From NCBI GenBank assembly GCA_018396995.1, contig JAGTQB010000002.1, forward strand, positions 1 through 64,000: a DNA stretch of 64,000 nucleotides. Reading direction: 5' to 3'. The notes under the pieces were generated by a model, which searched no databases, was not told the DNA's origin, and worked only from the letters and a program-made list of their open reading frames with translations. Shown here piece after piece: positions 33,974 to 51,308 of this stretch. A program made the translations under genes and the position numbers. The number at the start of each line of letters is the position of its first letter. The stretch's first letter is position 1. This DNA comes from Candidatus Bathyarchaeota archaeon (GTDB taxonomy: Archaea > Thermoproteota > Bathyarchaeia > Bathyarchaeales > DTEX01).

Positions 33974-34828
33974 TTGGCAGTCATTGAAGCAAGAAACCTA
34001 ACATACTCATATCCGTTTGCAGATAAACCAGCTATCGAGGACATAAACTTGGCAATCGAGAGGGGAGAATTTGTCCTCCTCACTGGACCCAGCGGCTGCG
34101 GAAAAACCACGCTCTGCAGATGCTTTAATGGGCTTATACCACACTTCTATGGCGGTAAGCTTGAGGGCGAAGTTTGGGTTGCTGGATTAAAAACGGATGA
34201 ACACCCAATCCATGAGCTGGCGAAACACGTCGGCTTAGTCTTCCAGAACCCTGAGAACCAACTGTTCGCCCTCACTGTGGAAAAAGATGTAGCCTTTGGG
34301 CTAGAGAACCTCGGGCTCCCAAGAGACGAAATTCGTAGGAGGGTTGATTGGGCCTTAAAGGTTACAGGGATATATGATTTAAAGGATAGGGCTCCCTTCG
34401 AGCTCTCTGGAGGACAGCAGCAACGCGTCGCAATAGCATCAATCCTCGCAATGCAGCCGGAGATTATGGTTCTAGATGAGCCAACGTCATTCCTTGACCC
34501 CCTCAGCGCCAGAAGCATTTTAGAAACAATTTATCAGCTGAACAGGGAGCTAGGGATAACAATTATATTGATTGAGCATAGATTGGACCTGGCCGCAAGG
34601 TATGCTGACCGCATTATTGTTATGGATCGCGGCCACATTATTTTAGATGGGGAGCCAAGGAAAATCTTTTTGGACGACAGAATTAAATTGGTTGGTGTTG
34701 GATTGCCGAAGGTTGTTAGGCTTTATCTTGCTCTAAGGGATGATAACGTGAACCTTAAAAGGGTTCCACTGAGCCCGGAGGAAGCCTCTAGATTAATTGC
34801 GGAGGTGCTCAACTCTGATAGAAGCTGA
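33974..34828 (+). CDS. ecfA1: Energy-coupling-factor transporter ATPase EcfA1
   Basis: GPSGCGKTTLCRCFNGLIPHFYGG; VFQNPENQLFALTVEKDVAFGLENLG; LSGGQQQRVAIAS. Confidence 0.92.
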   Translation: MAVIEARNLTYSYPFADKPAIEDINLAIERGEFVLLTGPSGCGKTTLCRCFNGLIPHFYGGKLEGEVWVAGLKTDEHPIHELAKHVGLVFQNPENQLFALTVEKDVAFGLENLGLPRDEIRRRVDWALKVTGIYDLKDRAPFELSGGQQQRVAIASILAMQPEIMVLDEPTSFLDPLSARSILETIYQLNRELGITIILIEHRLDLAARYADRIIVMDRGHIILDGEPRKIFLDDRIKLVGVGLPKVVRLYLALRDDNVNLKRVPLSPEEASRLIAEVLNSDRS

Positions 34829-35639
34829 AAACGTCTACTTCATATACCCAAATGGGGTTGAGGCCCTTAAAGGCGTTTCTCTTAGGATAAATGATGGAGA
34901 GTTTGTTGCAATAATGGGTCAGAACGGTGCGGGAAAGACTACATTAGTAAAGCATTTTGTAGGTTTATTGAAGCCGACTAAAGGTAGGGTCTTGGTAGAT
35001 GGTGTTGACACGAGAACCGTTAGCGTAGCTCAGCTCGCCAGGAAAGTTGGCTTCGTCTTTCAGAATCCAGACCACCAATTGTTCAGCGAAACAGTTGAAG
35101 ATGAAATAGCCTTCGCCTTAAGAAACTTTGGTTTCGATGAGAAGACCGTTAGGGAGAGGGTTGACTGGGCGCTAAACCTCCTAGACTTAACTCAGTACCG
35201 AAAGACATCGCCATTTATGCTAAGCGGCGGGGAGAGGAAGAGGGTTGCCTTAGCCTCAGTCTTGGCATGGGATCCAAAGATACTGATACTTGATGAGCCG
35301 ACCATAGGGCAAGATGCATACCAGAAGGAGAGACTGAGACACTTTATAATCCAGATGAATCAGCAGGGTAAGACCGTAATAATCGTTACGCATGATATAG
35401 AGTTTGTTGCTGAATGCGAGCCTAGGGTGATTTTAATGGTTAATGGTAGGATAATCGCCGACGGGGATGCTAGGGAGGTTCTCACCGACACAGTAGCTAT
35501 AAAAGAGGCATCTTTAGTGCTGCCTGAGATAACACAGGTGTTTATGGGACTCAATGACCTGGGCTTTTCGTGGAAGGTTTTAGGGGTTTATGAGGCTAAA
35601 TGCTTAATACTTGAGAGGCTCCGTGGGGTTAGGATATGA
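34797..35639 (+). CDS. ecfA2: Energy-coupling-factor transporter ATPase EcfA2
   Basis: MGQNGAGKTTLVKHFVGLLKPTKG; FQNPDHQLFSETVEDEIAFALRN; LSGGERKRVALAS. Confidence 0.92.
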   Translation: MRRCSTLIEAENVYFIYPNGVEALKGVSLRINDGEFVAIMGQNGAGKTTLVKHFVGLLKPTKGRVLVDGVDTRTVSVAQLARKVGFVFQNPDHQLFSETVEDEIAFALRNFGFDEKTVRERVDWALNLLDLTQYRKTSPFMLSGGERKRVALASVLAWDPKILILDEPTIGQDAYQKERLRHFIIQMNQQGKTVIIVTHDIEFVAECEPRVILMVNGRIIADGDAREVLTDTVAIKEASLVLPEITQVFMGLNDLGFSWKVLGVYEAKCLILERLRGVRI

Positions 35640-36427
35640 GCATATTTGAGGGCTTAAGGTTTAAAACTATTTCGTCACCAATACATAGAATTGATCCCAG
35701 AGCCAAGTTCATCTATGTGTGCGTTTTATTCGCCATTGCAGTATTATTCAGCCAGCTGATTCCGCTCCTAATATTATTCTTCTCCCAGATGCCACTAATC
35801 ATAATAGCTAAGCTAAAGAGGGAGTGGCTGCGCTTAATGAGGGGGTCAATGTTCTTTGCCGCGATAATCTTTATTGCCAACATGGTTTCACTATACTTTT
35901 ACGGTGGCACCCAATCCTTAGCAGCAGTTGTAGAGCATTCCCTAGCAATGACCACGAGATTTCTAATTCTAGTAGAATCCTTCTCAATATTCTTCGCAAC
36001 CACATCCCCAGATATGCTCAGCCTATCTCTTGAGCAAATAGGCGTACCCTACGAATTCTGCTTCGCATTCACAACAGCTATCAGGTTTGTCCCAGTTCTG
36101 GCGGAGGAGGCGCAGACAATAATGGACGCACAGAAGGCCCGCGGGTTGGAGCTTGAGCGTGGGAACTTTATAAAGAGGGTAAAAAACTATATACCAATTC
36201 TGATACCGCTGATTGTTAGCGCCATAAGAAGAAGTATGGAACTTGCGGAGGCCATGGAGTCAAGAGCATGGGGCGCATCAAAGAAGCGGACAAGCTTGTA
36301 CTCATTAAAGATGAAGACTAAGGACTATATTTTCATCGTAGCTTCAATTATAGTTCTCCTAGTCTCCATATATGTGCGTTTCTTTATTAGCATACCGAGT
36401 GTAACAGAGCTAATGCATCTCGGCTAA
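35636..36427 (+). CDS. ecfT: Energy-coupling-factor transmembrane protein EcfT
   Basis: HRIDPRAKFIYV; QTIMDAQKARGLELE; LAEAMESRAWGA (EcfT coupling motifs). Confidence 0.92.
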   Translation: MSIFEGLRFKTISSPIHRIDPRAKFIYVCVLFAIAVLFSQLIPLLILFFSQMPLIIIAKLKREWLRLMRGSMFFAAIIFIANMVSLYFYGGTQSLAAVVEHSLAMTTRFLILVESFSIFFATTSPDMLSLSLEQIGVPYEFCFAFTTAIRFVPVLAEEAQTIMDAQKARGLELERGNFIKRVKNYIPILIPLIVSAIRRSMELAEAMESRAWGASKKRTSLYSLKMKTKDYIFIVASIIVLLVSIYVRFFISIPSVTELMHLG

Positions 36428-36918
36428 GCTCTTTTCACATAACACTTGCCTATCGCATTTACGAGTGCTCCAGCATACCTCTTAACAGCATCCCTAACCT
36501 CCGGGCTCATCTTCTCCCCTAAGCCGAGGTTTCTCGGCTCTACGCCTAACAAAATAACCTTTGCATTAGTCTCCTTCTGTATTAATGATGTTAGCAAACT
36601 AAGCGGCATCGCATGCGTAGATATAGTTTCGTCTGGTATCTGCTCCGGGGGTATGAGCCTAGCTTCACCCGGCTCCTTGCCGAAGAGCGCTGCATCGATT
36701 ATAAGGACATGAGATGGCTTAAACCTCTTTATTTTGCCAATGAAATTCTCGGGAGCCGACCCGCCATATACCACCCTAACGTTTCTTGGAACCTTACCCT
36801 TTATCTCCTTCACGATCTCCAGCCCTAGGGAATCATCTCCTCTAAGGGGGTTGCCAACACCAATTATGACAAGTCTTCTGTAACCGCTTAGCCAAGTCTT
36901 AAGCTCGTCTTCAACCAT
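36424..36918 (-). CDS. [NiFe]-hydrogenase maturation endopeptidase
   Basis: VIIGVGNPLRGDDSLGLEIV; LIIDAALFGKEPGEARLI; STHAMPLSLL; LLGVEPRNLGLGEKMSPEV. Confidence 0.92.
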   Translation of the reverse strand: MVEDELKTWLSGYRRLVIIGVGNPLRGDDSLGLEIVKEIKGKVPRNVRVVYGGSAPENFIGKIKRFKPSHVLIIDAALFGKEPGEARLIPPEQIPDETISTHAMPLSLLTSLIQKETNAKVILLGVEPRNLGLGEKMSPEVRDAVKRYAGALVNAIGKCYVKRA

Positions 36919-37039: not shown

Positions 37040-37510
37040 ATGAAGAGTAATACAGCTGAGCAAAAGGTTCTCCTATACGACCCTACAAGGTGCACTGGAT
37101 GTCTCTTCTGCCAAATTGCTTGTTCCTACCAGCACTTCAAAGAAATCGGTTTAGAGAAAACCAACCTTCGAATAATATTTGATGAGAAGACAGGCGAGTT
37201 TGAGGCAATTTACTGCCAGCATTGTGATGAACCTCTTTGCGTCGCTGCATGCCCAAATGAGGCTGCCGTAAAAGATGAAGTGACAGGCTTAGTGAGGATA
37301 AATCCAATTAGGTGTATTGGCTGCAAAACATGTACTGTTGCCTGTCCCCTCTCAGCTCCATGGTTTAATGCTGAGCGGCGCATCTCCATGAAATGCGACT
37401 TCTGTGATGGAGATCCTAAATGCGCAAAATTCTGTTCACCCCAAGCTATCAGGGTTGCGTTGAGAAAGGAGGCGTGGGAGTTTAATAAAAACCGTTATTC
37501 AGGGGTGTAA
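37040..37510 (+). CDS. Poly-4Fe-4S ferredoxin (HycB/CooF-like electron-transfer subunit)
   Basis: CTGCLFCQIACSY; CQHCDEPLCVAACP; CIGCKTCTVACP; CDFCDGDPKCAKFC. Confidence 0.9.
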   Translation: MKSNTAEQKVLLYDPTRCTGCLFCQIACSYQHFKEIGLEKTNLRIIFDEKTGEFEAIYCQHCDEPLCVAACPNEAAVKDEVTGLVRINPIRCIGCKTCTVACPLSAPWFNAERRISMKCDFCDGDPKCAKFCSPQAIRVALRKEAWEFNKNRYSGV

Positions 37511-37513
37511 TAT

Positions 37514-38197
37514 ATGGTTGTGCAACTCGAATCCGAGATAATAAATTACTTGAGGGAGATTTTAGGAGACGACCTAATAAAGGTTTATAGGCAGCGGGAG
37601 AGGAGAATATTCGCTATCATTAAGCCAGCAGTCCTTAGGAGAACAATTGAAGCCTTAAAGAGCAAGTATAGCGACATGCGCTTCATGACTCTCTCCGCGG
37701 TTGATAATGGCTTAGATATGGAATACCTATACCACTTCAACATCAACGGCATAGTCCTAACAATAAGAGTTTTAAGGCCGAAGGAGGAGCCTATACTTGA
37801 ATCCATAGCCGATATCATCCCAGCAGCAAACTTCATTGAGAGGGAAATATCAGACTTATTTGGAGTGAAATTAGTGAATCATCCGGAGCTCGATCCATCT
37901 GGCTTAATATTGACTAAGGACTGGCCCGAAGATCAGAGACCTTTAAGGAGACCCTTTGAGGGAGTCCTGCCATTAAAGGCTAGGCCTGTTGCCGAAGCAT
38001 TAATAGCGAGCGGTTGCGTGGCTCCTATATCAACCTTTGTCCAAAAGAAGCGTGAAGAAAGTGGCCTACAAAAATCTCCCCCCTTCCCCTTCACCAATGA
38101 AAAGATTTTGGGCGAGTATCATGGTATCATTAAGGCCTCCGGTATTGGTGATAGGGTTGGTTTTGACTGGGAGAAGAGGAGACTCCGGTATAAGTAG
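37514..38197 (+). CDS. Group 4 hydrogenase / NuoC-like 30-kDa subunit
   Basis: PAANFIEREISDLFGVKLVNHPELDPSGLILTKDWPEDQRPLRRPF (NuoC signature). Confidence 0.88.
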   Translation: MVVQLESEIINYLREILGDDLIKVYRQRERRIFAIIKPAVLRRTIEALKSKYSDMRFMTLSAVDNGLDMEYLYHFNINGIVLTIRVLRPKEEPILESIADIIPAANFIEREISDLFGVKLVNHPELDPSGLILTKDWPEDQRPLRRPFEGVLPLKARPVAEALIASGCVAPISTFVQKKREESGLQKSPPFPFTNEKILGEYHGIIKASGIGDRVGFDWEKRRLRYK

Positions 38198-39085
38198 TTG
38201 AGGGTGATGGATATGGTTAAGTATGCCTTCTTCCTAGGTTGCCAGATCCCGATGCGGCTGCCAAATATTGAGGTGGCTACGAGAAAGGTTTTTGAGAAAC
38301 TTAATGTAGAGGCTGTTGACCTACTTGGTTATTCATGTTGCCCCGAGCCAGTTGTATCCCGCCTAGTGGATGAGGAGACTGCATTGGTTATATCCGCAAG
38401 GAATTTAACCTTAGCTGAAGAAATGGGGTTAGACATGATAACTCTATGTAATGGATGCTATGAAACTCTAGCCGAGGCAAACGAGGTTCTGAAACATGAT
38501 GCCGAGAAAAGGAGCAAAGTTAATGAAATCTTGAGGAAATATGACAGGGAATATGAGGGTAAAATTGATGTTAAACATGTTATCGAGGTTCTTTACGAGG
38601 ACATAGGTTTAAAGAAGATTAAGAGCCTAGTTGTTAAGCCCCAGAAAATGCGCGTTGCATTGCATTACGGTTGCCACCTATACCGCGAATATAAGAGTGC
38701 TGACATAATGCGTAAGCCGAGGATGATGCGGGAGATGGTTGAGCAGACAGGTGTTCAGGTAGTGGATTATGGTCTTGAGAGGATGTGTTGTGGTTACCCA
38801 AGTATGCAGGCGAGCGAAGAATTCTCGCTTAAGGAGAGACTAGCTCGTAAACTAAGCAAGGTTGTTAGTGCTGGAGCGGATGCCGTGGTCACCGCTTGCC
38901 CAGCCTGCATGATACAGTTTGAGCTTGGCCAAGTAATGTTGAGGGCGCACGGGGTCCAATTTAATGTGCCATGCATAAACCTAATGGAGCTATTAGCCTT
39001 GTCATTTGGTGTTCCATCCAAAGAGTTACTCCTAGAGTTTCATAGGAGCCCTGTTTTACAGTTAATTAGAAGGTTGGAGGGATAA
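38198..39085 (+). CDS. Heterodisulfide reductase subunit B-like (CCG domain) protein
   Basis: FFLGCQIPMRLPNIEVATRKVFEKLNVEAVDLLGYSCCPEPV; CNGCYETL; HYGCHLYREYKSAD; MCCGYPSMQASEEFSL; TACPACMIQFELGQ. Confidence 0.9.
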   Translation: MRVMDMVKYAFFLGCQIPMRLPNIEVATRKVFEKLNVEAVDLLGYSCCPEPVVSRLVDEETALVISARNLTLAEEMGLDMITLCNGCYETLAEANEVLKHDAEKRSKVNEILRKYDREYEGKIDVKHVIEVLYEDIGLKKIKSLVVKPQKMRVALHYGCHLYREYKSADIMRKPRMMREMVEQTGVQVVDYGLERMCCGYPSMQASEEFSLKERLARKLSKVVSAGADAVVTACPACMIQFELGQVMLRAHGVQFNVPCINLMELLALSFGVPSKELLLEFHRSPVLQLIRRLEG

Positions 39086-39090
39086 GTAAA

Positions 39091-40218
39091 ATGCCGGAGA
39101 AAGTTTATATTGGGCCTTACAGACCACAGCTGGTTGAGCCTGAACGTTTTGAGCTCCTTGTTGAGGGAGACAGGATAATTGATGCTAAGATGGAGCTCGG
39201 TTACATGCATAGGGGCATAGAGAAATTATTTACCACGAGAACATATATGCAGAACTTAGCTTTGGCTGAAAGGATATGCGGGATATGCAGCGGAGTACAT
39301 ACCCTATGTTATGCGCAGACGGTTGAAAGATTGATGGGCGTAGATGTCCCAGAGAGGGCGAGGTACCTAAGATGCATATATATGGAGCTTGAGCGCCTAC
39401 ACAGCCATTATCTATGGTTCGGAATACTGGCCCATAGCCTACATGAGCATGAAATCTTCGCAAAAATAATGGGTGAGAGGGAGATAATTCAAGACTTATT
39501 CGAATACTTAACAGGAAACAGGATTAACTATGCGATAAACACCATTGGCGGTGTGCGTAGGGATATAACGCCGGAGAAGGCTGAGAAGATACGTAAAGTC
39601 TTAAAGACGCTTAGGTCCCTCTCAGACTACATAATGTCGCTACTAGACGATAATGGGGTCCTCACGAAGAAGACTAAAGGTGTAGGCGTGCTACCAAGGG
39701 ATAAAGCCATAGAGGTCGGTGCGGTAGGCCCAGTTTTAAGAGCCTCCGGAGTTACTAGCGACGTAAGAAAAGATGATCCATATGCAGCATATGATAAACT
39801 TAACTTCGAAGTCATTGTTGAGAAGGATGGAGACCTCCGCGCCAAATCTCTTGTTAGGGCTAGAGAGACGTATGAGAGCATGAAAATTATTGAGCAAGCC
39901 TTAGATAATCTCCCATCGGGTGATATAGCCGCAAAGCCTGGAGAGCCTAAGGTTGGCGAGGAGATAGGCAGGACAGAAGCTCCGAGGGGCGAGCTAATAT
40001 ATTACATTAAGTCTAATGGCACAAATATTCCAGAGAGAGTTAAGGTTCGCACCCCCTCATACGCCAATAACTTCGCCATCCTTGCAATGCTCCGCGGCGA
40101 GTACCTTAAAAACGCTAGGGCAGTGATAGAGAGCATTGATCCATGCTTCGCATGCACGGACCGTGTGGTGGTTGTTGATGCTAGGACTGGTGTAAGGAGG
40201 ATTATGAATTTAAAGTAG
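39091..40218 (+). CDS. [NiFe]-hydrogenase large subunit, group 4/NuoD-like
   Basis: GYMHRGIEKLF; N-terminal Ni ligands RICGICSGVHT; C-terminal ligands DPCFACTDR plus C-terminal extension. Confidence 0.92.
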   Translation: MPEKVYIGPYRPQLVEPERFELLVEGDRIIDAKMELGYMHRGIEKLFTTRTYMQNLALAERICGICSGVHTLCYAQTVERLMGVDVPERARYLRCIYMELERLHSHYLWFGILAHSLHEHEIFAKIMGEREIIQDLFEYLTGNRINYAINTIGGVRRDITPEKAEKIRKVLKTLRSLSDYIMSLLDDNGVLTKKTKGVGVLPRDKAIEVGAVGPVLRASGVTSDVRKDDPYAAYDKLNFEVIVEKDGDLRAKSLVRARETYESMKIIEQALDNLPSGDIAAKPGEPKVGEEIGRTEAPRGELIYYIKSNGTNIPERVKVRTPSYANNFAILAMLRGEYLKNARAVIESIDPCFACTDRVVVVDARTGVRRIMNLK

Positions 40219-40234
40219 TTGGGGGTGAAGTTTA

Positions 40235-41143
40235 ATGGATAAGATTTCTGTTTATCGTTTCTTATCTGCTGGCTGTAATGCGTGCGATGTGGAGGTTCTT
40301 GAGTGCCTTGCCCCGCGTTATGGTCTTGCTAGCCTTGGCGTTGAGGTTGTTGAGGAGCCTGAGAAAGCAAATGTTCTAATTTTGACTGGTGCTGGAACAG
40401 TTAAGGGTAGGGAGGCGCTTCTAGAGGTATACGAAAAGATAAATCCACCGAAGATAGTTATTGCTGTTGGAAACTGCTCGATAACAAAGAACATCTTCGA
40501 TAAGGGTTATCCAATAATTGGCCCCCTAAATAAGCTTATTCCAGTCAACTATTATATTCCCGGGTGCCCGCCTAGACCGCAGGCGATAATTAAGGCTGTA
40601 GCCGATATACTTGGCGTGAAGATTGAGGAGAGGGAGGAGTGGTGGCAAACTCCAGAGGGCTTTCGTGGTAGGCACGAAATAGATAGAGAGAAATGTATTG
40701 GATGTGGGGCATGCGCCCAAATATGTACTGCCGACGCAATAGAAGTTATTGACGGCCCAGAGAAGAGGATAATCAAGGTCAATTATGTGCATTGTACTTT
40801 CTGCGCCTTCTGCCAAGATGAGTGCCCCACAAAGGCGCTGAAACTCACAGGAGCATATCATTTATTGACAAATGATCTCCAAAAGGCTAGGGTTGAGAAC
40901 GAGGTTAACCTACTTACCTGCGCTATATGCGGGGGGACATTCTTCCCGGAGAAGCAGATAGATTGGGCGCTAAAGCGTATTGTCGAGGAGAAGGCTCCAA
41001 TATACAGAGACTTCAGCAGCGAAATTTTAGATGCCGTTAAAATATGCACTAATTGTAGAAGAAGTGTGGAGAGTATTAAGAAGGCGAAAAGACTTCTAAC
41101 TAAGCTCTCGGAAAAAGCTAGGGCTACAGTGCTCCGGAAATAG
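40235..41143 (+). CDS. [NiFe]-hydrogenase small subunit (NuoB-like) with two 4Fe-4S motifs
   Basis: AGCNACDVEVLECLAPRYGL; GNCSITKNIF; YIPGCPPRPQAI; then CIGCGACAQICTADAI and CTFCAFCQDECPTKAL. Confidence 0.92.
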   Translation: MDKISVYRFLSAGCNACDVEVLECLAPRYGLASLGVEVVEEPEKANVLILTGAGTVKGREALLEVYEKINPPKIVIAVGNCSITKNIFDKGYPIIGPLNKLIPVNYYIPGCPPRPQAIIKAVADILGVKIEEREEWWQTPEGFRGRHEIDREKCIGCGACAQICTADAIEVIDGPEKRIIKVNYVHCTFCAFCQDECPTKALKLTGAYHLLTNDLQKARVENEVNLLTCAICGGTFFPEKQIDWALKRIVEEKAPIYRDFSSEILDAVKICTNCRRSVESIKKAKRLLTKLSEKARATVLRK

Positions 41144-41217
41144 ACATATTTTTATCTTACCCCTTCCTTTCTATCTCTTTAAAAGAGGATGAGGTCTCCT
41201 GTTAAGGAGGATTAAGG

Positions 41218-41763
41218 TTGGCTGAGGAGAGCATATCCATCTCTTCCAAAATAGATCCGAAGTTTAGGTATGAAGTTATTAGGATGCCTGGTGGAGAAAA
41301 GCTTCTGCAATGCTTTCAGTGTGGGACATGTACATCTGATTGCCCAGTTGCAAGGTTTAGTGATAAATATAGGCCGAGAAAGATTATTAGGATGGCTCAG
41401 CTCGGCCTGAGGGAGAAGGTTTTAAGCAGTGACTTCCTATGGCTATGTGCCTCATGCTTCACGTGTACTGATAGATGCCCACAAGGGGTTGAGGTTGCAA
41501 GTGTAATAAGGGTTCTAAAGAACATGGCTGCTGCCGAGGGGCGGATACCAGAAGTATTTAAGGTTCTTCTAAGCAATCTAATTAAAACTGGCTACATATA
41601 TGAGATTCCAGAGTCGAGGATTAAGAAGCGCGAGTCTCTAGGTCTACCACCCCTACCAAAGGTTAACATTGAAGGCTTAAATAAATCGCTGCAGGGCATG
41701 AGTATTGAGAGTTTCCTTAAAGGGGTTTCTGAGAAAGGTAGGGAGGCTAAGTTGTGGGTATGA
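41218..41763 (+). CDS. Heterodisulfide reductase subunit C-like protein
   Basis: LLQCFQCGTCTSDCPVARFSDKYRPRKIIRMAQLGLREKVLSSDFLWLCASCFTCTDRCPQGVEVASV. Confidence 0.93.
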   Translation: MAEESISISSKIDPKFRYEVIRMPGGEKLLQCFQCGTCTSDCPVARFSDKYRPRKIIRMAQLGLREKVLSSDFLWLCASCFTCTDRCPQGVEVASVIRVLKNMAAAEGRIPEVFKVLLSNLIKTGYIYEIPESRIKKRESLGLPPLPKVNIEGLNKSLQGMSIESFLKGVSEKGREAKLWV

Positions 41764-42632
41764 GCCAGAAATACCTGTTTTATTTGGGGTGCGCCATACC
41801 TTACAGGGTCTCGTCATATGAGGTTTCTGCTAGAAAAGTTTTGGAGAAGTTAGGTGTGGAGTTAGTCGAGATGCCGGAGTTTAATTGCTGTGGTCTCCCA
41901 CTTGAACCATTAAGCCATGAGCTAATGTTAATCTTATCTGCGAGGAACCTTGCTGTAGCGGAGCAAACGGGATTAAACATTTTAACTCTCTGTCCAGGAT
42001 GCTTCAGTACGCTAAGGAAGACTGGTAAGACGCTTAAGGAGAATAAAGCTCTTAAAGAAGAGATTAATAGGCATCTAAAGGAATCCGGCTTAGAATTTAA
42101 GGGAGGCATTGAGGTTAAGCATATCTCCCAAGTCTTAGTTGAAGACATTGGTCTCGATAAAATTAAAAAGGCAATTGTTAAGCCATTGAGAAATCTTAAG
42201 CTCGCAGGACATAGCGGATGCCACCTCTCAAGACCGAAGAAGTATATTGGGTTTGAGGATCCCGAGAACCCAAGAGTTCTGAAGATGCTTATTAGCGTAA
42301 CTGGAGCGAAGCCAGTAGAGTATTTAGGCGAGACGGAGTGTTGCGGCTCAACGATAGCCGCCCTAGATGACAAGGTTTCGCTGTCATTAGTTAGAGAGAA
42401 GCTCCTCCATGTCAAGGAAGCTGGCGCCGATGCGCTGATAACAATTTGCCCAGCTTGTCACATGATGTATGAGGCTAATCAGATACGAGCTGAGAAAATG
42501 TTTGGTGAGAAATACGGTATTCCGGTGCTGCATTATACGCAGCTCCTCGGCCTGGCAATGGGTATGCAACCGGGGGAGCTAGGATTCGATGAGCTACGGG
42601 TTAAGCCCACAAAAATCCTAGAGAAGATTTAA
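41754..42632 (+). CDS. Heterodisulfide reductase subunit B-like protein (second copy)
   Basis: FYLGCAIPYRVSSYEVSARKVLEKLGVELVEMPEFNCCGLPLEPL; CPGCFSTL; SGCHL; ECCGSTIAALD; ICPACHMMYEANQ. Confidence 0.93.
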   Translation: MGMSQKYLFYLGCAIPYRVSSYEVSARKVLEKLGVELVEMPEFNCCGLPLEPLSHELMLILSARNLAVAEQTGLNILTLCPGCFSTLRKTGKTLKENKALKEEINRHLKESGLEFKGGIEVKHISQVLVEDIGLDKIKKAIVKPLRNLKLAGHSGCHLSRPKKYIGFEDPENPRVLKMLISVTGAKPVEYLGETECCGSTIAALDDKVSLSLVREKLLHVKEAGADALITICPACHMMYEANQIRAEKMFGEKYGIPVLHYTQLLGLAMGMQPGELGFDELRVKPTKILEKI

Positions 42633-42697: not shown

Positions 42698-44980
42698 ATG
42701 CGTTTAAAGATAATTGTTTCTGGCATTGTTCAGGGGGTTGGTTTCCGCCCCTTCATATATAGAACTGCTGTTAAGAACCGCTTGAAGGGTTATGTTAGGA
42801 ATAGAGGGGACTCGTGTGTAGAAATAGTTGTTGATGGCGGGGACGAAGATATAAAAAGATTTCTAAGAGATCTTATTGAGAAGAAACCTCCGTTAGCCAG
42901 GATTTATGAGGTTATAACTACGCCCATTGAATCCACTGGGGAAAATTACGAGGACTTTAAAATATATAGGAGTTCTGATGAAGCGGAGTTATCTGGCTCG
43001 GTTATACCCCCAGACATAGCTATATGCGACGAGTGTCTTATGGAGATGCGTGATCCATCAAACCCAAGATACGATTACTTCTTCATAACATGCGTAAACT
43101 GTGGGCCTAGATATACGATCATAGAAGATGTCCCATATGATAGGGAGAACACCACGATGCGGGACTTCCAAATGTGCGGCTTCTGTAAGTCGGAGTACAT
43201 GGATCCCATAAACAGGAGGTTCCACGCGCAAACCGTCGCATGTCCGAGGTGTGGCCCAAGGGCATATTTACTGGATGCTAATGGTGGCATTGTTGAGTGT
43301 AGGGATCCAATTAGGGAAGCTGGTAGGCTCATTTCTGAGGGGTGTATTATTGCGGTTAAAGGTTATGGAGGCTTCCATATAGCTGCCTCAACCCTTCTCG
43401 ATGAGCCGCTTAAGAGATTAAGGGCTGCAAAGCATAGGAGGCAGAAACCATTCGCTATAATGGCTAGGAGCTTAGAGGCTGTGAAGAGCTTTGCTAAGGT
43501 AAGCTCCTGGGAGGAGAAGGTATTAACATCCTATGAGCGCCCAATAGTTTTGTTAGAGAAAGGCGAAAACTACTATTTATCTGAGCTTATTTCTCCGGGC
43601 CTACATAATGTTGGTGTAATGTTACCCTATACTGGATTACATTACATGCTGTTTGACTGGGTTAAAGATCCGGCTTTTGTCATGACCAGCGCCAACCCGC
43701 CAAACCAGCCGATAATTAAAGATGATGATGAAGCCCTAAGGAAGTTACGCGGCCTAGTAGACTATTTTCTAATGCATAATAGGCGTATAGCCCATAGGTG
43801 TGACGACTCGGTTTTACGCTTGCATGGATATAAGCCAGTCTTTATAAGGAGGTCGAGGGGTTATGCACCGGAGCCGATTAGGCTGAGACTTAAGGCTAGG
43901 AGCTCCGCACTCGGGCTTGGGGGCGAAAAGAATAATACTGCGTGTCTCGTGGTTGGCGATAAAGCCTTCCTCTCGCAGCATATAGGTGACGTTGAGAACC
44001 TTGAGACTCTAGTGTTCCTTGAGTCCGCATCCAAGAGACTTATGCGCTTAACGAATAGTAATGTTGATGTGGTTGCATGCGACCTACACCCAAAGTTCGC
44101 CACCACAATGCTGGCTAGTAGACTCTCTGAGGAGTATGGCTGCAGGGTTCTTCAGGTTCAGCATCACTACGCCCATACAGCCGCCTTGTTAGCTGAACAT
44201 GGGCTAAATGAGATTATAGCCATATGCTGTGATGGCTATGGATACGGTTTGGATGGAGGTGCGTGGGGCGGAGAAATAATATTCGGCTCGCTCAATCCGC
44301 TGGAGTTTAAGCGACTGGGCCATCTAGAGGAGCAGCCACTGCTTGGAGGGGATATGGCAACAAGATACCCTATTAGGGTTGCAGCTGGCATACTATATAA
44401 GCGCGTGGATATAGAAGAATGGCTTATGGAGAACAGTATTAATTTGCCCCATGGGCTTAGAGAGGCGCAGCTCATACTCTCAAAGCTTAAGAGGGGTGAC
44501 GTTAGAATTAAGACAACCAGCTGTGGTAGAGTTCTGGATGCAGCCTCGGCAATTCTGGGAGTATGTTATGAAAGAACATATGAGGGTGAGCCTGCAATGA
44601 AGCTCGAGTCGGCGGCAATAAACGGTAGAAATGTTATTGAGCTTGAACCGCAAATCAGGGGGACAACATTAGAGACAACTAACATAATAGTCTCGCTATT
44701 CGAGGGAAGAAAGGTTTACTCTAGGAGGGATTTAGCCTACTCTATTCACTATTATTTGGCTAGGGGATTGGCTAAGCTGGCCGTTGATCTAGCGATAGAG
44801 TATGGTGTTAAGAGCATCGGCTTTACTGGGGGCGTCGCATGCAATCAAATAATTACTGACATTATGCGCAGTTTCATTGAGGAGAGCGGACTAAATTTTT
44901 TCGTTCACGAAGCCGTGCCACCCGGCGATGGTGGTTTATCATTTGGCCAAGCAATCGCGGCTGCTTTCTCTCAAGATTAA
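42698..44980 (+). CDS. hypF: Carbamoyltransferase HypF
   Basis: Acylphosphatase IVQGVGFRPFIYRTA; zinc motifs CDECLMEM...CVNCGPRYTI, CGFCKSEYMDPINRRFHAQTVACPRCGP; carbamoyltransferase C-terminus. Confidence 0.97.
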   Translation: MRLKIIVSGIVQGVGFRPFIYRTAVKNRLKGYVRNRGDSCVEIVVDGGDEDIKRFLRDLIEKKPPLARIYEVITTPIESTGENYEDFKIYRSSDEAELSGSVIPPDIAICDECLMEMRDPSNPRYDYFFITCVNCGPRYTIIEDVPYDRENTTMRDFQMCGFCKSEYMDPINRRFHAQTVACPRCGPRAYLLDANGGIVECRDPIREAGRLISEGCIIAVKGYGGFHIAASTLLDEPLKRLRAAKHRRQKPFAIMARSLEAVKSFAKVSSWEEKVLTSYERPIVLLEKGENYYLSELISPGLHNVGVMLPYTGLHYMLFDWVKDPAFVMTSANPPNQPIIKDDDEALRKLRGLVDYFLMHNRRIAHRCDDSVLRLHGYKPVFIRRSRGYAPEPIRLRLKARSSALGLGGEKNNTACLVVGDKAFLSQHIGDVENLETLVFLESASKRLMRLTNSNVDVVACDLHPKFATTMLASRLSEEYGCRVLQVQHHYAHTAALLAEHGLNEIIAICCDGYGYGLDGGAWGGEIIFGSLNPLEFKRLGHLEEQPLLGGDMATRYPIRVAAGILYKRVDIEEWLMENSINLPHGLREAQLILSKLKRGDVRIKTTSCGRVLDAASAILGVCYERTYEGEPAMKLESAAINGRNVIELEPQIRGTTLETTNIIVSLFEGRKVYSRRDLAYSIHYYLARGLAKLAVDLAIEYGVKSIGFTGGVACNQIITDIMRSFIEESGLNFFVHEAVPPGDGGLSFGQAIAAAFSQD

Positions 44981-44991
44981 ATTACTTTTCC

Positions 44992-45954
44992 CTATAAGCC
45001 TAGAATTTCCTCCTTAATGGCCCTATGGGTCTCCGAGATGGGTGCAACTGTATTCACGACATATATGTCCAGGAGATTGAAGAGGTTCATGAAGAACCTC
45101 CTTCTCAAATTCGTTTTCCGTTCATCTCTAACTAATAGATGTGGATTGCAAAAGTCGGAGTTCTCAACACATTTAAGGGCTTCGCTTGGTGATAGCCTGC
45201 TAAAGATTGTCTTATCCTCAGGATCACGCTTCAAAATTATGGCCTTTTTAAGGGTCGTCATCGGAATAATCTTTCCCCTCCCAACGATCCACCTAACATT
45301 TACTATGGCTCTACCCATAGAATCAAACTCGGCTTTATCAACCAGCCTCTTATACTCTCCCCAAATCTCTGCTACATCTGCCTGGATATAAAAGTTCTTT
45401 TCTGACGCAAATGCAAGAGCTTCTCCCCCCATTAAGCGCACAAAGAACCAGTCGTCTGAGACAGCGCGCACCCCTTTAAGTCTTAAAAGCCCATAGGTAT
45501 GCGTTGTTTTCCCCGTACCTGGTGGCGCCATTAGGCAGACCCCCTGCCCATCTATATCTATACATGCACCATGAACGGAGTTTATTCCATGCTCATCCTC
45601 CAGTATATCGCTCGCAACGCTAAGGGCTATCGATTTGACCCAACCATAGTAGTCCACGTTTATTAAGAAGGCTGTTTTAGAAAGCGGATCGTATAGAACC
45701 TGCATCCTCCCATCCGTCTCACTTGTAACTACTAGTCTACCATGGGAGCGAATGCTCGCTGACATGGGATAAAAGCTTTCCTCCCATCTCTCCTTCACAT
45801 GCCTTTCATCAGTGAGGAGCTTAATACAGCAACCATAAATGTCAGCCTTAACTTCATAGAGAAACCGGCCACTATACTTCTCCATTAATTTATCCTTCTC
45901 CTCAATCGAAATTAATTTAACCTCATACTTCACAAGAATCCCCAAAATACACAT
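44992..45954 (-). CDS. HPr kinase/phosphorylase-like P-loop protein
   Basis: SVHGACIDIDGQGVCLMAPPGTGKTTHTYGLLRLKGVRAVSDDWFFV; HprK/PEPCK-like P-loop layout. Confidence 0.6.
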   Translation of the reverse strand: MCILGILVKYEVKLISIEEKDKLMEKYSGRFLYEVKADIYGCCIKLLTDERHVKERWEESFYPMSASIRSHGRLVVTSETDGRMQVLYDPLSKTAFLINVDYYGWVKSIALSVASDILEDEHGINSVHGACIDIDGQGVCLMAPPGTGKTTHTYGLLRLKGVRAVSDDWFFVRLMGGEALAFASEKNFYIQADVAEIWGEYKRLVDKAEFDSMGRAIVNVRWIVGRGKIIPMTTLKKAIILKRDPEDKTIFSRLSPSEALKCVENSDFCNPHLLVRDERKTNLRRRFFMNLFNLLDIYVVNTVAPISETHRAIKEEILGL

Positions 45955-46065: not shown

Positions 46066-46299
46066 ATGTGCTTGGCTGTTCCAGCCAAGGTTATCGAGAT
46101 AAATGGTGATTTGGCTAAAGTTGATTTTGGCGGCGGGGTAATTAGGGAGGCAAACATATCGCTTGTAGATGCCAAAGTTGGCGATTATGTCCTCATCCAC
46201 GCAGGCTATGCAATACAAGTCTTAGACGAGGAAGAGGCTAAAGAGACCCTGAGACTATGGATGGAGATTCTAAAAGCTGAGGAAGGGATGAGAGAATAA
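46066..46299 (+). CDS. hypC: HypC/HybG/HupF family hydrogenase chaperone
   Basis: MCLAVPAKVIEINGDLAKVDFGG...VGDYVLIHAGYAIQVLDEEEA. Confidence 0.95.
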   Translation: MCLAVPAKVIEINGDLAKVDFGGGVIREANISLVDAKVGDYVLIHAGYAIQVLDEEEAKETLRLWMEILKAEEGMRE

Positions 46300-47396
46300 T
46301 GCTCCTTAAAGATTTTAGGGATCCATGGCTCGCTAAAAGGATAGTTGAAAAGATACATGAGATTTCTCCTAAAAAAGACGTGGTAAAAATTTGTCATGTA
46401 TGTGGGACTCATGAATGGACGATATCACATTACGGCATAAGAAGTCTATTGCCAAGTAACGTTGATGTTATTGCTGGCCCAGGCTGCCCGGTATGCATTG
46501 TCCCAGCTTCAGAAGTGGATGAGGCCATTGAGCTAGCGTTAAAGGGGGCAACTCTCATATGTTTTGGTGATGCAGCTAGGGTTCCGGGCTCACAGCTGTC
46601 TCTTATAGAGGCTAAAGCCAAGGGTGCTGATATCCAAATAGTTTATAGTGTTATGGATGCCGTGAAGGTGGCTGAGAAGGAGCCGAATAGAGAATTCGTC
46701 TTCTTTGCAATAGGCTTTGAGACGACGGCCCCCTTAACCGCTTATGAAGTGCTCAAAAAGCCTCCTAGAAACCTTAGTTTCCTAATATCTCATAGGCTTA
46801 TTCCACCAGCCATGGAGCTCATGCTAGGTATAGGTGACTTGCAAATAGATGCCTTTATAGCCCCGGGTCACGTCAGCACAATTATAGGGTTAGAGCCATA
46901 CGAGGTATTCCCGAAGGTTTATCGGATGCCGACAATCGTAGCTGGTTTCGAGCCGATAGATGTCCTCCTTGCAATATACATGGCCTTAAAACAGATTAAG
47001 AACCGCATAGCAATTCTAGAAAACGAGTATAAGCGGGCGGTAAAATGGGATGGCAATGTTAAGGCAAAGGAGCTTATAAAAAAGGCCTTTAAAGTCGTTA
47101 GCGGAAATTGGCGTGGTCTAGGCAGAATACCAGACTCAACATTGGCACTTAGGGAGGAATATTTGGAGTATGACGCCCATGAAAAGCATGGTGTTAGAAT
47201 TGAGAGGGGGATGGATATCCCCCCGGGGTGCCAATGCCACCTGGTTATAATAGGGAAGATAAAGCCAATAGAGTGCCCACTATTTATGAAGGCATGTACC
47301 CCCCAGAAACCAGTAGGGTCGTGCATGGTTGGAATAGAGGGAACATGTAGAATATGGGCTTCAGCCCGGCAAGAATTGAAGCCAAAGTTTATCTAA
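46299..47396 (+). CDS. hypD: Hydrogenase formation protein HypD
   Basis: VCGTHEWTISHYGIRSLLPSNVDVIAGPGCPVCIVP; PGHVSTIIG; CTPQKPVGSCMVGIEGTCRIW. Confidence 0.97.
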   Translation: MLLKDFRDPWLAKRIVEKIHEISPKKDVVKICHVCGTHEWTISHYGIRSLLPSNVDVIAGPGCPVCIVPASEVDEAIELALKGATLICFGDAARVPGSQLSLIEAKAKGADIQIVYSVMDAVKVAEKEPNREFVFFAIGFETTAPLTAYEVLKKPPRNLSFLISHRLIPPAMELMLGIGDLQIDAFIAPGHVSTIIGLEPYEVFPKVYRMPTIVAGFEPIDVLLAIYMALKQIKNRIAILENEYKRAVKWDGNVKAKELIKKAFKVVSGNWRGLGRIPDSTLALREEYLEYDAHEKHGVRIERGMDIPPGCQCHLVIIGKIKPIECPLFMKACTPQKPVGSCMVGIEGTCRIWASARQELKPKFI

Positions 47397-47449: not shown

Positions 47450-47974
47450 GTGATCCCTTTGGAGCTTGAGATTATTAATGCCAAGATGAACCCCCTAAGT
47501 GATGAAGATATTAGAGATATTGTTGAGATAGAGTGCCATCCATTGGTTAGGAAATGGCTTGTAGAGTACACGATTAAGGGATTTGAGGAGGAGCTTAGGG
47601 AGTACAAGGATTTCTTTAGTAAGCTACGCGGCAATGATAGGGTTGAGGTTTTGGTTGCAAAGATGAATAACCGGGTCGTTGGTTTCTTAGCCCTCTGGTG
47701 TGTTGATAATTGCGATGAGCAGGCAATGAGTATAGGGATAAGCGTTCACCCGGATTACTGGGGTAAAAATATAGCATCGACCCTCGTTAGGGAATCGATA
47801 AAGCTGGCTAAAAATAGGGGTGTGAAAAAGCTTATTATAGAGACTTTGGAGGAAAATGGTGCCATGAGACGAGTAGCGGAAAAACTTGGTTTCAAGCTTG
47901 AAACAGTTAGGAGGGGGATAATTTTTAAAGATGGTGTATGCCATAATGAGGTTGCTTATACGCTGAGGATATGA
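47450..47974 (+). CDS. GNAT-family N-acetyltransferase
   Basis: AMSIGISVHPDYWGKNIASTLVRESIKLAKNRGVKKLIIETLEENGAMRRVAEKLGFKLE. Confidence 0.87.
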   Translation: MIPLELEIINAKMNPLSDEDIRDIVEIECHPLVRKWLVEYTIKGFEEELREYKDFFSKLRGNDRVEVLVAKMNNRVVGFLALWCVDNCDEQAMSIGISVHPDYWGKNIASTLVRESIKLAKNRGVKKLIIETLEENGAMRRVAEKLGFKLETVRRGIIFKDGVCHNEVAYTLRI

Positions 47975-48039
47975 ACCACGGTAACTCTAAAAATGTTAAT
48001 AGAAAACTTTAATAGTTAGTGTATTTGGCATACATACTT

Positions 48040-48065
48040 ACTGTAGCACCATTTGGTGCTACAGT
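48040..48065. promoter_or_regulatory. Perfect 11-bp inverted repeat (actgtagcacc-attt-ggtgctacagt) upstream of the kamA-like gene
   Basis: Read directly; ends 18 nt before the annotated ATG at 48084. Confidence 0.75.
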
Positions 48066-48083
48066 GGGCGCGCGAAATAAAAT

Positions 48084-49199
48084 ATGGGGGAAGATTGGAA
48101 AAGTATTCTCCGGAAAAGCATTACTAGACCGGAGCAGATTCTTGAAAGGTTTAAGGTTGACATTAAGCCCATAAAAGCTGTTGCCGAAGTTTACCCAATG
48201 TTTGTATCAAAGTACTATTTCGATCTTATAGAAGAGGTTGATGACCCGATATGGAAGCAATGCATACCAAACCCACTTGAACTCCAGGATCCATATGGAT
48301 ACGAGGATCCGCTTAATGAGGAAGGGGATAGCCCGGTGCCCGGTTTAGTGCATAGGTATCCTGATAGAGTTTTGATGTGTGTTTCAAATAGCTGCGCAAC
48401 ATATTGTAGATTCTGCACTAGGAAGAGGAAGGTTGGTAAGCCCTCCATTAAATTCTCGGACGACATTTATCTAGCGCAAATCAAATATATTCGTGAGAAT
48501 CCAGGAATCAGAGACGTTCTTCTCTCAGGCGGAGACCCCTTTATGCTGCCGGATGAGAAAATAGAGTTCCTTTTAAAGAAACTTAGGGCTATTCCACACG
48601 TTGAGATACTGAGGATAGGGACTAGAGTTCCATGCACGCTGCCCCAGAGAATAACTCCAAAACTATGTAGAATCCTTAAAAAGTATCACCCATTGTACGT
48701 GAATGTCCACTTTGAGCACCCACGTGAGATAACTGAAGAGAGCGAGCGCGCATGTGGATTATTAGCCGACGCTGGGATACCACTTGGAAACCAGTCCGTC
48801 CTATTAAGGGGCGTTAACGATGACCCAGAGATCATGAAGAACCTAGTCCATAAGCTCCTTAAGATACGCGTTAGGCCATATTATTTATTCCAAATGGATC
48901 TCGTGAAGGGAACGTATCATTTTAGGACTAGGGTTGAGGTTGGACTTAAAATAATTGAAAGTCTCATTGGATGGACTTCTGGGCTAGCCGTGCCGAGGTT
49001 CGTTATAGATGCGCCGGGCGGTGGGGGAAAGATTCCAATCCAGCCAAACTATATTGTCTCAATAGATGATGAAAAAATTGTTCTAAGAAACTATGAGGGG
49101 AAGTTATTCGTTTATCCGCAGATACCTCCAGAGGGGCGAGACTACAAAGTTTATATGCAATACTTAACTCCTTTGAATTCCCCAGGTAAAGTGGCTTAG
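48084..49199 (+). CDS. KamA-family radical SAM aminomutase (lysine 2,3-aminomutase-like)
   Basis: SNSCATYCRFCTRKRK cluster; LFQMDLVKGTYHFRT; FVIDAPGGGGKIP with PLP Lys. Confidence 0.92.
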   Translation: MGEDWKSILRKSITRPEQILERFKVDIKPIKAVAEVYPMFVSKYYFDLIEEVDDPIWKQCIPNPLELQDPYGYEDPLNEEGDSPVPGLVHRYPDRVLMCVSNSCATYCRFCTRKRKVGKPSIKFSDDIYLAQIKYIRENPGIRDVLLSGGDPFMLPDEKIEFLLKKLRAIPHVEILRIGTRVPCTLPQRITPKLCRILKKYHPLYVNVHFEHPREITEESERACGLLADAGIPLGNQSVLLRGVNDDPEIMKNLVHKLLKIRVRPYYLFQMDLVKGTYHFRTRVEVGLKIIESLIGWTSGLAVPRFVIDAPGGGGKIPIQPNYIVSIDDEKIVLRNYEGKLFVYPQIPPEGRDYKVYMQYLTPLNSPGKVA

Positions 49200-49222
49200 G
49201 AGCACTGGGGTGCTTTTTTCTA

Positions 49223-50278
49223 ATGCCCCTCAGAGTTGGCTTAACATATAACCTTAGGAGAAAAGTTAAGCCTGGTGATAATTTACCAGAAGACTTCTAT
49301 GTAGAGTTTGATGAGGAGAGCACTGTTAACGCTATTGCTTCGGCTTTGAGGAAGGGTGGATGTAGAGTAATAAAGATTGAGGCTGACGAAAACGCCTACA
49401 TGAGATTACGTAGATGCAAGCCAGACATAGTGTTTAATATTGCTGAGGGGCTTCTTGGCGAAAGTAGGGAGTCGCATATACCAGTTATACTTGAGATGCT
49501 TGGCATACCATATACTGGCTCAGGCCCGGCAACCTTAGCTATATGCCTAAATAAAGCTATGACGCATAAGGTTTTAAGCGCATATGATATCCCATCACCG
49601 AACTTTCAGGTTTTTAGACGAGCCGACGAGAACCTTGATAGTAGTCTCAATTTCCCGCTAGTTGTTAAACCATTACTTGAAGGTTCAAGTAAAGGGATTA
49701 GAAGCAGTTCTCTTGTGAGAGATGAGGAAAGTCTTAGGAGGCAGGTCTCATGGATTATAGAAAACTATCATCAGCCAGCCATAGTTGAAGAATTTATGCC
49801 GGGTAGAGAATTCACCGTTGGATTAATAGGTAATGATGAGCCATATGTCCTACCAATAGTTGAGATACAGCTTGACAAGCTACCAAAAGGTGTAAGCCCA
49901 ATATACTCCTATGAGGCTAAGTGGGTTTGGGACACTCTTGAGAAACCCCTGGATATATTTAGGTGCCCAGCAGACATTCCACCTGAGCTTAATGAAGAGA
50001 TAAGGGAAATAGCCATTAAAACCTTCGAGATTTTGGAGTGCAGAGATATATGCCGCATAGACATAAGGTTAGATGGGGATGGGGTTCCGAGGGTCTTAGA
50101 AGTCAATCCATTACCGGGACTAATACCAGACCCCGATGCCCACTCATGCCTACCAGAAGCAGCTAGGGCCGCTGGCTTCACATATGAAGAGCTTATCTGC
50201 ACAATCCTTTGGCAGGCCTTAAAGAGGTATGGGATCCATCACCTCTTCGTGAAGAGACATTTGGTGAAGCTTCCATAA
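49223..50278 (+). CDS. ATP-grasp ligase, D-alanine-D-alanine-ligase family
   Basis: VFNIAEGLLGESRESHIPVILEMLGIPYTGSGP; PLVVKPLLEGSSKGI; RVLEVNPLPGL. Confidence 0.9.
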   Translation: MPLRVGLTYNLRRKVKPGDNLPEDFYVEFDEESTVNAIASALRKGGCRVIKIEADENAYMRLRRCKPDIVFNIAEGLLGESRESHIPVILEMLGIPYTGSGPATLAICLNKAMTHKVLSAYDIPSPNFQVFRRADENLDSSLNFPLVVKPLLEGSSKGIRSSSLVRDEESLRRQVSWIIENYHQPAIVEEFMPGREFTVGLIGNDEPYVLPIVEIQLDKLPKGVSPIYSYEAKWVWDTLEKPLDIFRCPADIPPELNEEIREIAIKTFEILECRDICRIDIRLDGDGVPRVLEVNPLPGLIPDPDAHSCLPEAARAAGFTYEELICTILWQALKRYGIHHLFVKRHLVKLP

Positions 50279-50297
50279 GAGATCATCTTCCATGCAG

Positions 50298-51308
50298 CTA
50301 AGAACCTCTATCAGCCCTCTCCAGAGCAAACTCTAATATCTTTTTAATAAAGTCTTCAAAGGAGATTCCCGCAACCTTTAGAGATCTAGTGAATCCAGCC
50401 TCCGGGGATACGTCGGGGTTTGGGTTAACTTCGAGGACATACGGCTTTCCAGTCTTATCCTCAAACCGTATATCAACCCTTGCGTAATCCCGGCATCCCA
50501 GCACTCTATAAGCCCTTAACGCCGCGTCCTCCACCTTACTTCTAACATCTTCATCCAGCTCCGCGGGGCAAACTGGTCTGGTCTTAATATATTCCTCGCT
50601 TTCCTTAAACCACTTAGCCTTATAGTCAACTATTTTCGGCTCATCTTCAAAATCAAAAATTATTTCAGATATTGGGAGAACGATTGGGCTCTCATTGCCA
50701 AGTATTGACACGTTAAATTCTCTTCCACTTATATATTCCTCTACGAGGGCTGGCTGCCTATAGGTATCATTTATATACTCAACTTGGCTCTTGAGCTCCA
50801 TTAGGTTCTTAACGAAGCTGCGCCGAGTAATGCCTATGCTCGCATCTTCTCTCAATGGCTTAACAATTAACGGAAAACTTAGAGATACATGAGGCTTATC
50901 ATGTTTCATCATGATGCAGTAATCTGGCGTTGGCACACCATAAGCCTTCAAAACAGCCTTCGCTAGACCCTTATCTTGGCAGAGTCCCAGCGTTAACGGT
51001 GTAGATCCAGTGTATGGTATCCTCAGAAGCTCAAGGATAGATGGTATACACATCTCAAGGCTACTATCCCCCATAAAGCCCTCACAAAGATTTATGACGG
51101 CGTCCAGCTCACTGGTTTTTAGGGCCCTGATAACTTCCTCAATGTCATCCCCTACTGGAAGAAGGCAGTAATGGATGCCAAGTCTTTCAAGGGCCTCTTG
51201 TACAGCATTTACCTGGTCTAAGATTTCTTCCTCAGCTAAGTAGTCTATTTCTTCGCCCTTCAGCGGCTTCATAGGCAAATTAAAGAGTATACCAACTCTA
51301 AGGGCCAT
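50298..51308 (-). CDS. ATP-grasp ligase, D-alanine-D-alanine-ligase family (paralog)
   Basis: VINLCEGFMGDSSLEMCIPSILELLRIPYTGSTP; PLIVKPLREDASIGI; YVLEVNPNPDVSPEAGF. Confidence 0.9.
   Translation of the reverse strand: MALRVGILFNLPMKPLKGEEIDYLAEEEILDQVNAVQEALERLGIHYCLLPVGDDIEEVIRALKTSELDAVINLCEGFMGDSSLEMCIPSILELLRIPYTGSTPLTLGLCQDKGLAKAVLKAYGVPTPDYCIMMKHDKPHVSLSFPLIVKPLREDASIGITRRSFVKNLMELKSQVEYINDTYRQPALVEEYISGREFNVSILGNESPIVLPISEIIFDFEDEPKIVDYKAKWFKESEEYIKTRPVCPAELDEDVRSKVEDAALRAYRVLGCRDYARVDIRFEDKTGKPYVLEVNPNPDVSPEAGFTRSLKVAGISFEDFIKKILEFALERADRGS

Follow-up and report, generated by a model that had tools for sequence, protein, structure and literature searches.

How might a group-4-like [NiFe] hydrogenase operate when its genes are interleaved with genes for HdrB and no membrane subunit is encoded beside them? 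This question is raised by a locus in a 64,000-nucleotide stretch of bathyarchaeal DNA (hereafter the window). The locus occupies positions 37040–42632 of the plus strand, and all seven open reading frames (ORFs) reported for it by an earlier sequence-only reading are present, on the same strand and tightly packed. ORF and family analyses confirmed these genes, together with the full sets of NiFe and noncubane-cluster cysteines. In gene order, the spacing comprises gaps of 3, 0, 5, 16 and 74 bp and then a 10-bp overlap between HdrC and HdrB2. The source genome (G000) is archaeal, spans 1.46 Mb in 42 contigs and is 98.5% complete; its closest relatives at this locus are Bathyarchaeota metagenome-assembled genomes (MAGs), the large subunit of locus L004 being 91% identical. 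As judged from sequence, the first five genes (37040–41143) probably encode a soluble [NiFe] hydrogenase-disulfide reductase, in which a group-4 peripheral arm of the formate hydrogenlyase/Mbh type carries HdrB in place of formate dehydrogenase and has lost its membrane arm.

Composition of the conserved unit

The large subunit, HdrB1 and FeS1 were used as queries to find loci, whose neighbouring genes were then mapped. FeS1 (37040–37510; Fer4_11, 4e-14) is a polyferredoxin with four [4Fe-4S] motifs, a HycB/AorA-like electron wire whose best PDB match is the AOR subunit 8c0z_C (1e-28) and which also matches HycB (7z0s_B, 1e-17). The following NuoC homologue (37514–38197; Complex1_30kDa, PF00329, 1e-18) has a fold matching NuoC, MbhK and HycE, and its residues 143–227 form a fused HdrC C-terminal domain (37940–38194). 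HdrB1 (38198–39085; TIGR03288, 4e-86) contains two CCG domains with ten noncubane-cluster ligands and is homologous to 8rvu_b and 5odc_B. The [NiFe] large subunit (39091–40218; PF00346, 3e-69; PF00374, 4e-16) is of the NuoD/HycE-C type with motifs RICGICSGVH and DPCFACTDR; it matches MbhL (6cfw_L, 2e-75) and has only a short C-terminal tail beyond the L2 motif, like processed hydrogenases. In the fifth protein (40235–41143), NuoB with its proximal cluster (NuoB families) is fused to a NuoI/HycF-like half that has two [4Fe-4S] motifs and a CxxC..CxxC tail (PRK12387, 3e-26), with PDB matches to MbhJ (6cfw_J) and HycF (7z0s_F). By homology, FeS1 thus corresponds to HycB, NuoC and NuoD together to HycE, the NuoB half to HycG/MbhJ and the NuoI half to HycF.

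The metal ligands of all these subunits are conserved. Both CxxC pairs of NuoD (L1 and L2) are invariant in 21/21 members of the window-type clade, as are the 10 cysteines of HdrB1 in 20/20, whose two CCG motifs retain all noncubane-cluster cysteines. Likewise, the 16 cysteines of FeS1 are invariant in 19/19 members and every cluster cysteine of NuoB/NuoI is kept in 20/20. The loss of NiFe ligands and the NuoH-bound quinone/phenazine site that define complex I and Fpo are not found here, as the ligands are kept and NuoH is missing. One long-branched window-type member, L091 in genome G213, is also without NuoH and has a deviating L1 motif, RVCGICSNSH.

Apart from the window, 18 intact sampled loci, representing about nine family-level groups, share the order FeS1-NuoC-HdrB1-NuoD-NuoB::NuoI, and in all intact window-type loci on sufficiently long contigs HdrB1 is flanked by NuoC and NuoD. 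In the HdrB tree, the core HdrB1 clade is split from the HdrABC/Mvh-type HdrB with SH-aLRT support of 100; judged by their neighbourhoods, the three core-side rows labelled "other" (L097, L118 and L120) represent HdrB1 genes from complex loci. The conserved order, the dedicated HdrB clade and the HdrC-like domain fused to NuoC support HdrB1 as an integral part of the hydrogenase unit, in line with the earlier argument that HdrB1, sitting between NuoC and NuoD, marks one complex.

The fused domain was identified from several comparisons. Ehd/Ehe-type loci contain small ORFs of ~90–125 residues between FeS1 and HdrB1, and the C-terminal 85 residues of NuoC align with these (hhalign 99.5%). When a profile built from the NuoC tails and these small ORFs (A2) was compared with all PDB chains, five distinct HdrC sequences ranked at the top through their C-terminal parts (E values 4e-13, 6e-13, 2e-9, 2e-6 and 4e-6), with noise beginning at 0.37. 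Direct alignment of the NuoC tail with the HdrC C-terminus gave a probability of 96.5%, versus ≤1.8% in 30 column-shuffled controls, and the sole NCBIfam match of the window's NuoC tail alone was HdrC (E 0.001). These profile matches indicate that HdrC is split in this system, with its ferredoxin half missing and FeS1 encoded beside the remainder; we infer that FeS1 functionally replaces that half. In genome G223, two divergent HdrB-linked hydrogenases are encoded directly next to each other (L092); the first is Ehd/Ehe-like and has a short ORF for the HdrC tail, and the second is intermediate, with a full NuoC and a NuoH.

The remaining two genes behave differently from the core. HdrC (41218–41763; TIGR03290, 2e-35) is full length, including its ferredoxin domain, and HdrB2 (41754–42632; TIGR03288, 2e-86) belongs to the HdrB of HdrABC/Mvh complexes. 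Besides the window, the pair directly follows the core in L004, L005 and L006 only; it is missing beside most cores, close relatives L007, L008, L009 and L108 included. In L016, homologues of the pair lie inside the run MvhD-HdrC-HdrB2-MvhG-MvhA. Within the window's own genome, HdrC is 51% identical to the Mvh-linked HdrC and HdrB2 is 57% identical to the Mvh-linked HdrB (63% to that in L016), and the HdrB tree places HdrB2 on the Mvh/HdrA-linked side. Because the pair is rarely adjacent and HdrB2 falls in the Mvh/HdrA-linked clade, we define the core as five genes rather than the seven initially proposed. A core role for HdrC-HdrB2 was rejected on the grounds of phylogeny and neighbourhood; the pair more likely serves an HdrA/Mvh complex.

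Absence of the membrane arm

The coupling of a redox arm to a membrane pump is the defining feature of group-4 hydrogenases and complex I. No NuoH or antiporter gene was found in any sampled window-type locus. Sister loci, by comparison, encode NuoH (5–9 hydropathy peaks) and, in many cases, an antiporter; their NuoI and NuoB are separate genes, and the NuoB::NuoI fusion is confined to the NuoH-less clade among the sampled loci. Hydropathy analysis revealed no peak above 1.5 in any core subunit, compared with 2.35 for NuoH. The absence extends to whole genomes: four that carry the operon have no match to PF00146 (NuoH), namely G174 (97% complete), G172 (92%), G169 (89%) and G166 (72%), and the operon-bearing G185 (94% complete) is not among the 160 PF00146 matches listed. 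The only NuoH match in the window's own genome lies on contig C23, accompanied by its own NuoB, NuoD (CGIC and DPCLSC), NuoI and antiporter, and this locus is a separate membrane group-4 hydrogenase. In the large-subunit tree, the NuoH-less rows form one clade (100/100), apparently sister to HdrB-linked rows with NuoH, and a single loss of NuoH is therefore the simplest history.

With no NuoH beside the core, and genomes that have the core but no NuoH at all, the complex is most likely soluble, as had been proposed. A supply of NuoH in trans was rejected in view of the NuoH-less genomes carrying the operon. The sequence-only reading had also noted that neither HdrA nor membrane subunits are present, which holds for the window; the genome, however, encodes several HdrA proteins, an HdrA-MvhD-HdrC-HdrB-MvhG-MvhA cluster and the membrane group-4 hydrogenase on C23. 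The complete cluster, on contig C42 (28000–39000; L073), runs HdrA-MvhD-HdrC-HdrB-MvhG-MvhA-HycI, with an HdrA of 1001 aa made of tandem HdrA-like halves. The organism thus has a second Hdr-hydrogenase, of the group-3c type.

Electron path, substrate and alternatives

On the basis of the subunit homologies and invariant metal ligands, we propose that electrons move between H2 and a disulfide/dithiol couple. Electrons would pass between H2 and the NiFe site of NuoD, on to the proximal cluster of the NuoB half, and from there through the two clusters of the NuoI half to the four clusters of FeS1. FeS1 would exchange them with the two noncubane clusters of HdrB1 and thereby with the disulfide/dithiol, so that the whole path would comprise about seven [4Fe-4S] clusters plus two noncubane clusters. 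HdrB1 would be held by the NuoC tail, which corresponds to the remaining half of HdrC. Having neither an ion pump nor HdrA, the unit would be expected to act as a near-equilibrium redox valve, either taking up H2 to reduce a disulfide or releasing H2 from a dithiol.

The known potentials are about −414 mV for H2, about −290 mV for lipoate and about −140 mV for CoM-S-S-CoB, and by these values a reversible, uncoupled enzyme would be best matched with a low-potential dithiol. Our leading guess for the substrate is protein-bound lipoate of a GcvH-like carrier. A lipoylatable GcvH is encoded on contig C38, with ESVKAVSD at the lipoyl site; a lipoate-ligase-like ORF, assigned by reading its sequence, lies in the window at 23838–24617; and GcvH-like genes adjoin several sister loci. 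GcvH-like neighbours have been noted for Ehe too (PMC9723716). CoM-S-S-CoB is an unlikely substrate because genome G000 has no McrA. A more specific version of our reading, which we put forward tentatively, is a soluble, non-bifurcating H2:dithiol/disulfide oxidoreductase that holds HdrB through the NuoC-fused HdrC domain, acts on a lipoyl or other non-methanogenic disulfide and has shed its membrane arm. Another GcvH-like protein, encoded near Mvh-Hdr on C42, was rejected as a substrate since its lipoyl site (ETWMF) lacks the lysine and the protein carries a fused ribbon-helix-helix-like stretch. GcvH-like proteins of this kind (197 aa; G000 C42:39543–39917; also L110 and L134), with the ribbon-helix-helix-like stretch at the N-terminus, lie near Mvh-Hdr or core hydrogenase genes and look like regulators derived from the lipoyl-carrier fold.

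Several points weigh against a soluble, lipoate-linked enzyme. Proteins of the window itself served as seeds for finding the loci. The MAGs are incomplete; yet five absences of NuoH, that of G185 being judged from the matches listed, are hard to explain in this way. The union of all HdrB-linked large subunits has support of only 91/64 in a tree that does not include Methanocella Drh or Nezhaarchaeia Ehg. Even if soluble in itself, the complex might attach to the membrane by way of a partner. HdrB1 would dock on a NuoC tail for which AlphaFold gave low confidence; the N-terminal domain was modelled well, and the prediction was not used for the HdrC assignment. Finally, the case for lipoate is confined to the gene neighbourhoods of relatives and to presence in the genome.

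Four other arrangements were weighed against the soluble five-gene enzyme. HdrA from elsewhere in the genome might join HdrC-HdrB2 or HdrB1, giving a bifurcating H2:ferredoxin/disulfide complex in which a group-4-type hydrogenase replaces Mvh. The genome indeed has several HdrA genes, HdrA-HdrC-HdrB adjoins the core in L013, HdrA lies near it in L016, and HdrA-HdrC-HdrB or HdrA also stands beside the Ehe-type loci L037 and L118. We nevertheless regard this as unlikely: the window and most members have no HdrA close to the core, FeS1 and the NuoC tail give HdrB1 a split counterpart of HdrC, and C42 already provides a complete HdrA-Mvh set. Rather improbable is a non-catalytic HdrB1 serving electron transfer or as a scaffold, with FeS1 exchanging electrons with ferredoxin or with an oxidoreductase such as AOR, which would make this a ferredoxin- or aldehyde-linked hydrogenase. 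The closest solved relative of FeS1, 8c0z_C, is an AOR polyferredoxin, and HycB-type subunits are generally known to couple diverse enzymes, but a pure scaffold would need none of the ten noncubane ligands that are invariant in 20 members.

A seven-subunit complex, with HdrC and HdrB2 as extra arms so that one hydrogenase feeds two HdrB sites, would account for their adjacent, co-directional genes in the window and its three like relatives and for the overlap of HdrC with HdrB2. The missing pairs beside most cores, the placement of HdrB2 with Mvh/HdrABC HdrB, the Mvh run in L016 and a T-rich stretch within the 74-bp gap preceding HdrC all argue against it and make it quite improbable. That the core becomes membrane-bound by recruiting NuoH and the antiporter from the C23 hydrogenase is highly improbable. 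The window's genome does contain NuoH, and almost all outgroup complexes in the sample are of membrane types; however, the C23 NuoH has its own NuoB, NuoD and NuoI, and relatives carry the operon without any NuoH match.

Relation to known systems and flanking genes

The complex had initially been considered a candidate undescribed one, a status that our comparisons do not sustain as far as its kind is concerned. Drh, Ehd, Ehe and Ehg have been published as HdrB-interacting group-4 [NiFe] hydrogenases, membrane-associated in the models of PMC9723716, which also mentions an Ehd-like cluster including Bathyarchaeia sequences. Moreover, sister loci in related archaea carry NuoH, antiporters and HdrA, neighbours that the sequence-only reading itself had held would speak against it. 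Ehd (Methanomethylicia) and Ehe (Culexarchaeia) resemble the window type in their homologues of FeS1, the HdrC-tail domain, HdrB1, NuoC, NuoD, NuoB and NuoI; their large subunits may form the sister clade, the joint group having support of 91/64. They differ in that NuoH is kept, usually with an antiporter, the HdrC tail has an ORF of its own and NuoC and NuoD are often fused, whereas the window type lacks NuoH and has the HdrC tail fused to NuoC and NuoB fused to NuoI. Drh of Methanocella (PMC6046458, PMC9723716), compared by description rather than by sequence, likewise combines a hydrogenase with HdrB, has no antiporter and is proposed to carry out H2-dependent disulfide reduction, but it is described as putatively membrane-associated (PMC6046458) and belongs to a methanogen with CoM-S-S-CoB.

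Formate hydrogenlyase (7z0s) shares the peripheral arm with HycB-, HycE-, HycG- and HycF-like subunits, whereas the window type has HdrB instead of FdhH and no membrane arm. In MvhADG-HdrABC (5odc, 8rvu), HdrB is likewise linked to H2 and bears two noncubane clusters, and the C-terminal domain of HdrC is present too; this complex differs in its group 3c MvhA, MvhD, flavin-containing HdrA and bifurcation, in contrast to the NuoD-type large subunit and HdrA-free unit of the window. The Hfo/Fpo-like complexes of Bathyarchaeia (PMC7886697, PMC8407382) come from the same archaeal class and have NuoB/C/D homologues, but Hfo is an 11-subunit membrane complex, and the text of neither paper describes an HdrC-NuoC fusion. 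PMC8407382 does report an fpo-like operon containing hdrB2 in one family of hot-spring Bathyarchaeia, which may be this locus type.

The window type has an HdrB in the cluster and a dedicated HdrB lineage, as do HdrB-interacting group-4 hydrogenases, and its L1/L2 motifs (21/21) are those of membrane energy-converting group-4 enzymes; a membrane subunit of the NuoH type is what it lacks. Its sequences thus suggest that it works like HdrB-linked group-4 hydrogenases but without their membrane association. In the open literature (text, not figures), neither a NuoH-free member nor a NuoC-HdrC fusion came to light. As far as we found, the new elements are the five-gene NuoH-less unit, the HdrC C-terminus fused to NuoC, and the position of HdrC-HdrB2 outside the core. 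In Bathyarchaeia of hot springs and sediments, a normally membrane-anchored hydrogen enzyme appears to have lost its anchor and joined a disulfide-reducing subunit, which would make it a probably soluble form of a recently described enzyme family connecting H2 with thiols. A clade with the redox arm wired to HdrB and without NuoH would show that the arm can work alone. It would also offer a soluble, tractable model for Ehd, Ehe and Drh, which are genome predictions and have never been purified, and the NuoC-HdrC fusion predicts how HdrB is attached. It further raises the question of which disulfide connects H2 to metabolism in non-methanogenic archaea.

The genes around the unit fit a functional NiFe enzyme. 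A HycI-type maturation protease on the minus strand (36424–36918; TIGR00142, 139 bits versus a cut-off of 119) probably serves the NuoD large subunit, and its gene adjoins the core in L004, L005, L011, L016, L017, L032 and L108. On the plus strand, a HypF-like maturation protein (42698–44980), recognized by sequence reading, follows HdrB2; its gene holds the same position in relatives, adjoining the core in L004–L006, with another order in L017 and L032. HypC (46066–46299; PF01455, 6e-29) and a HypD-like maturation protein (46299–47396; sequence reading, conserved neighbour) lie further downstream. Immediately upstream of HycI, an ECF-type transporter energy module of two ATPases and a membrane subunit (33974–36427), also present in L004, could be for nickel or cobalt uptake. 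An HPr-kinase-like P-loop protein with weak family matches is encoded antisense between hypF and hypC (44992–45954). Consecutive genes for a GNAT acetyltransferase, a lysine 2,3-aminomutase-like protein and two ATP-grasp ligases (47450–51308) might form an N-acetyl-beta-lysine or beta-lysine ligation cluster.

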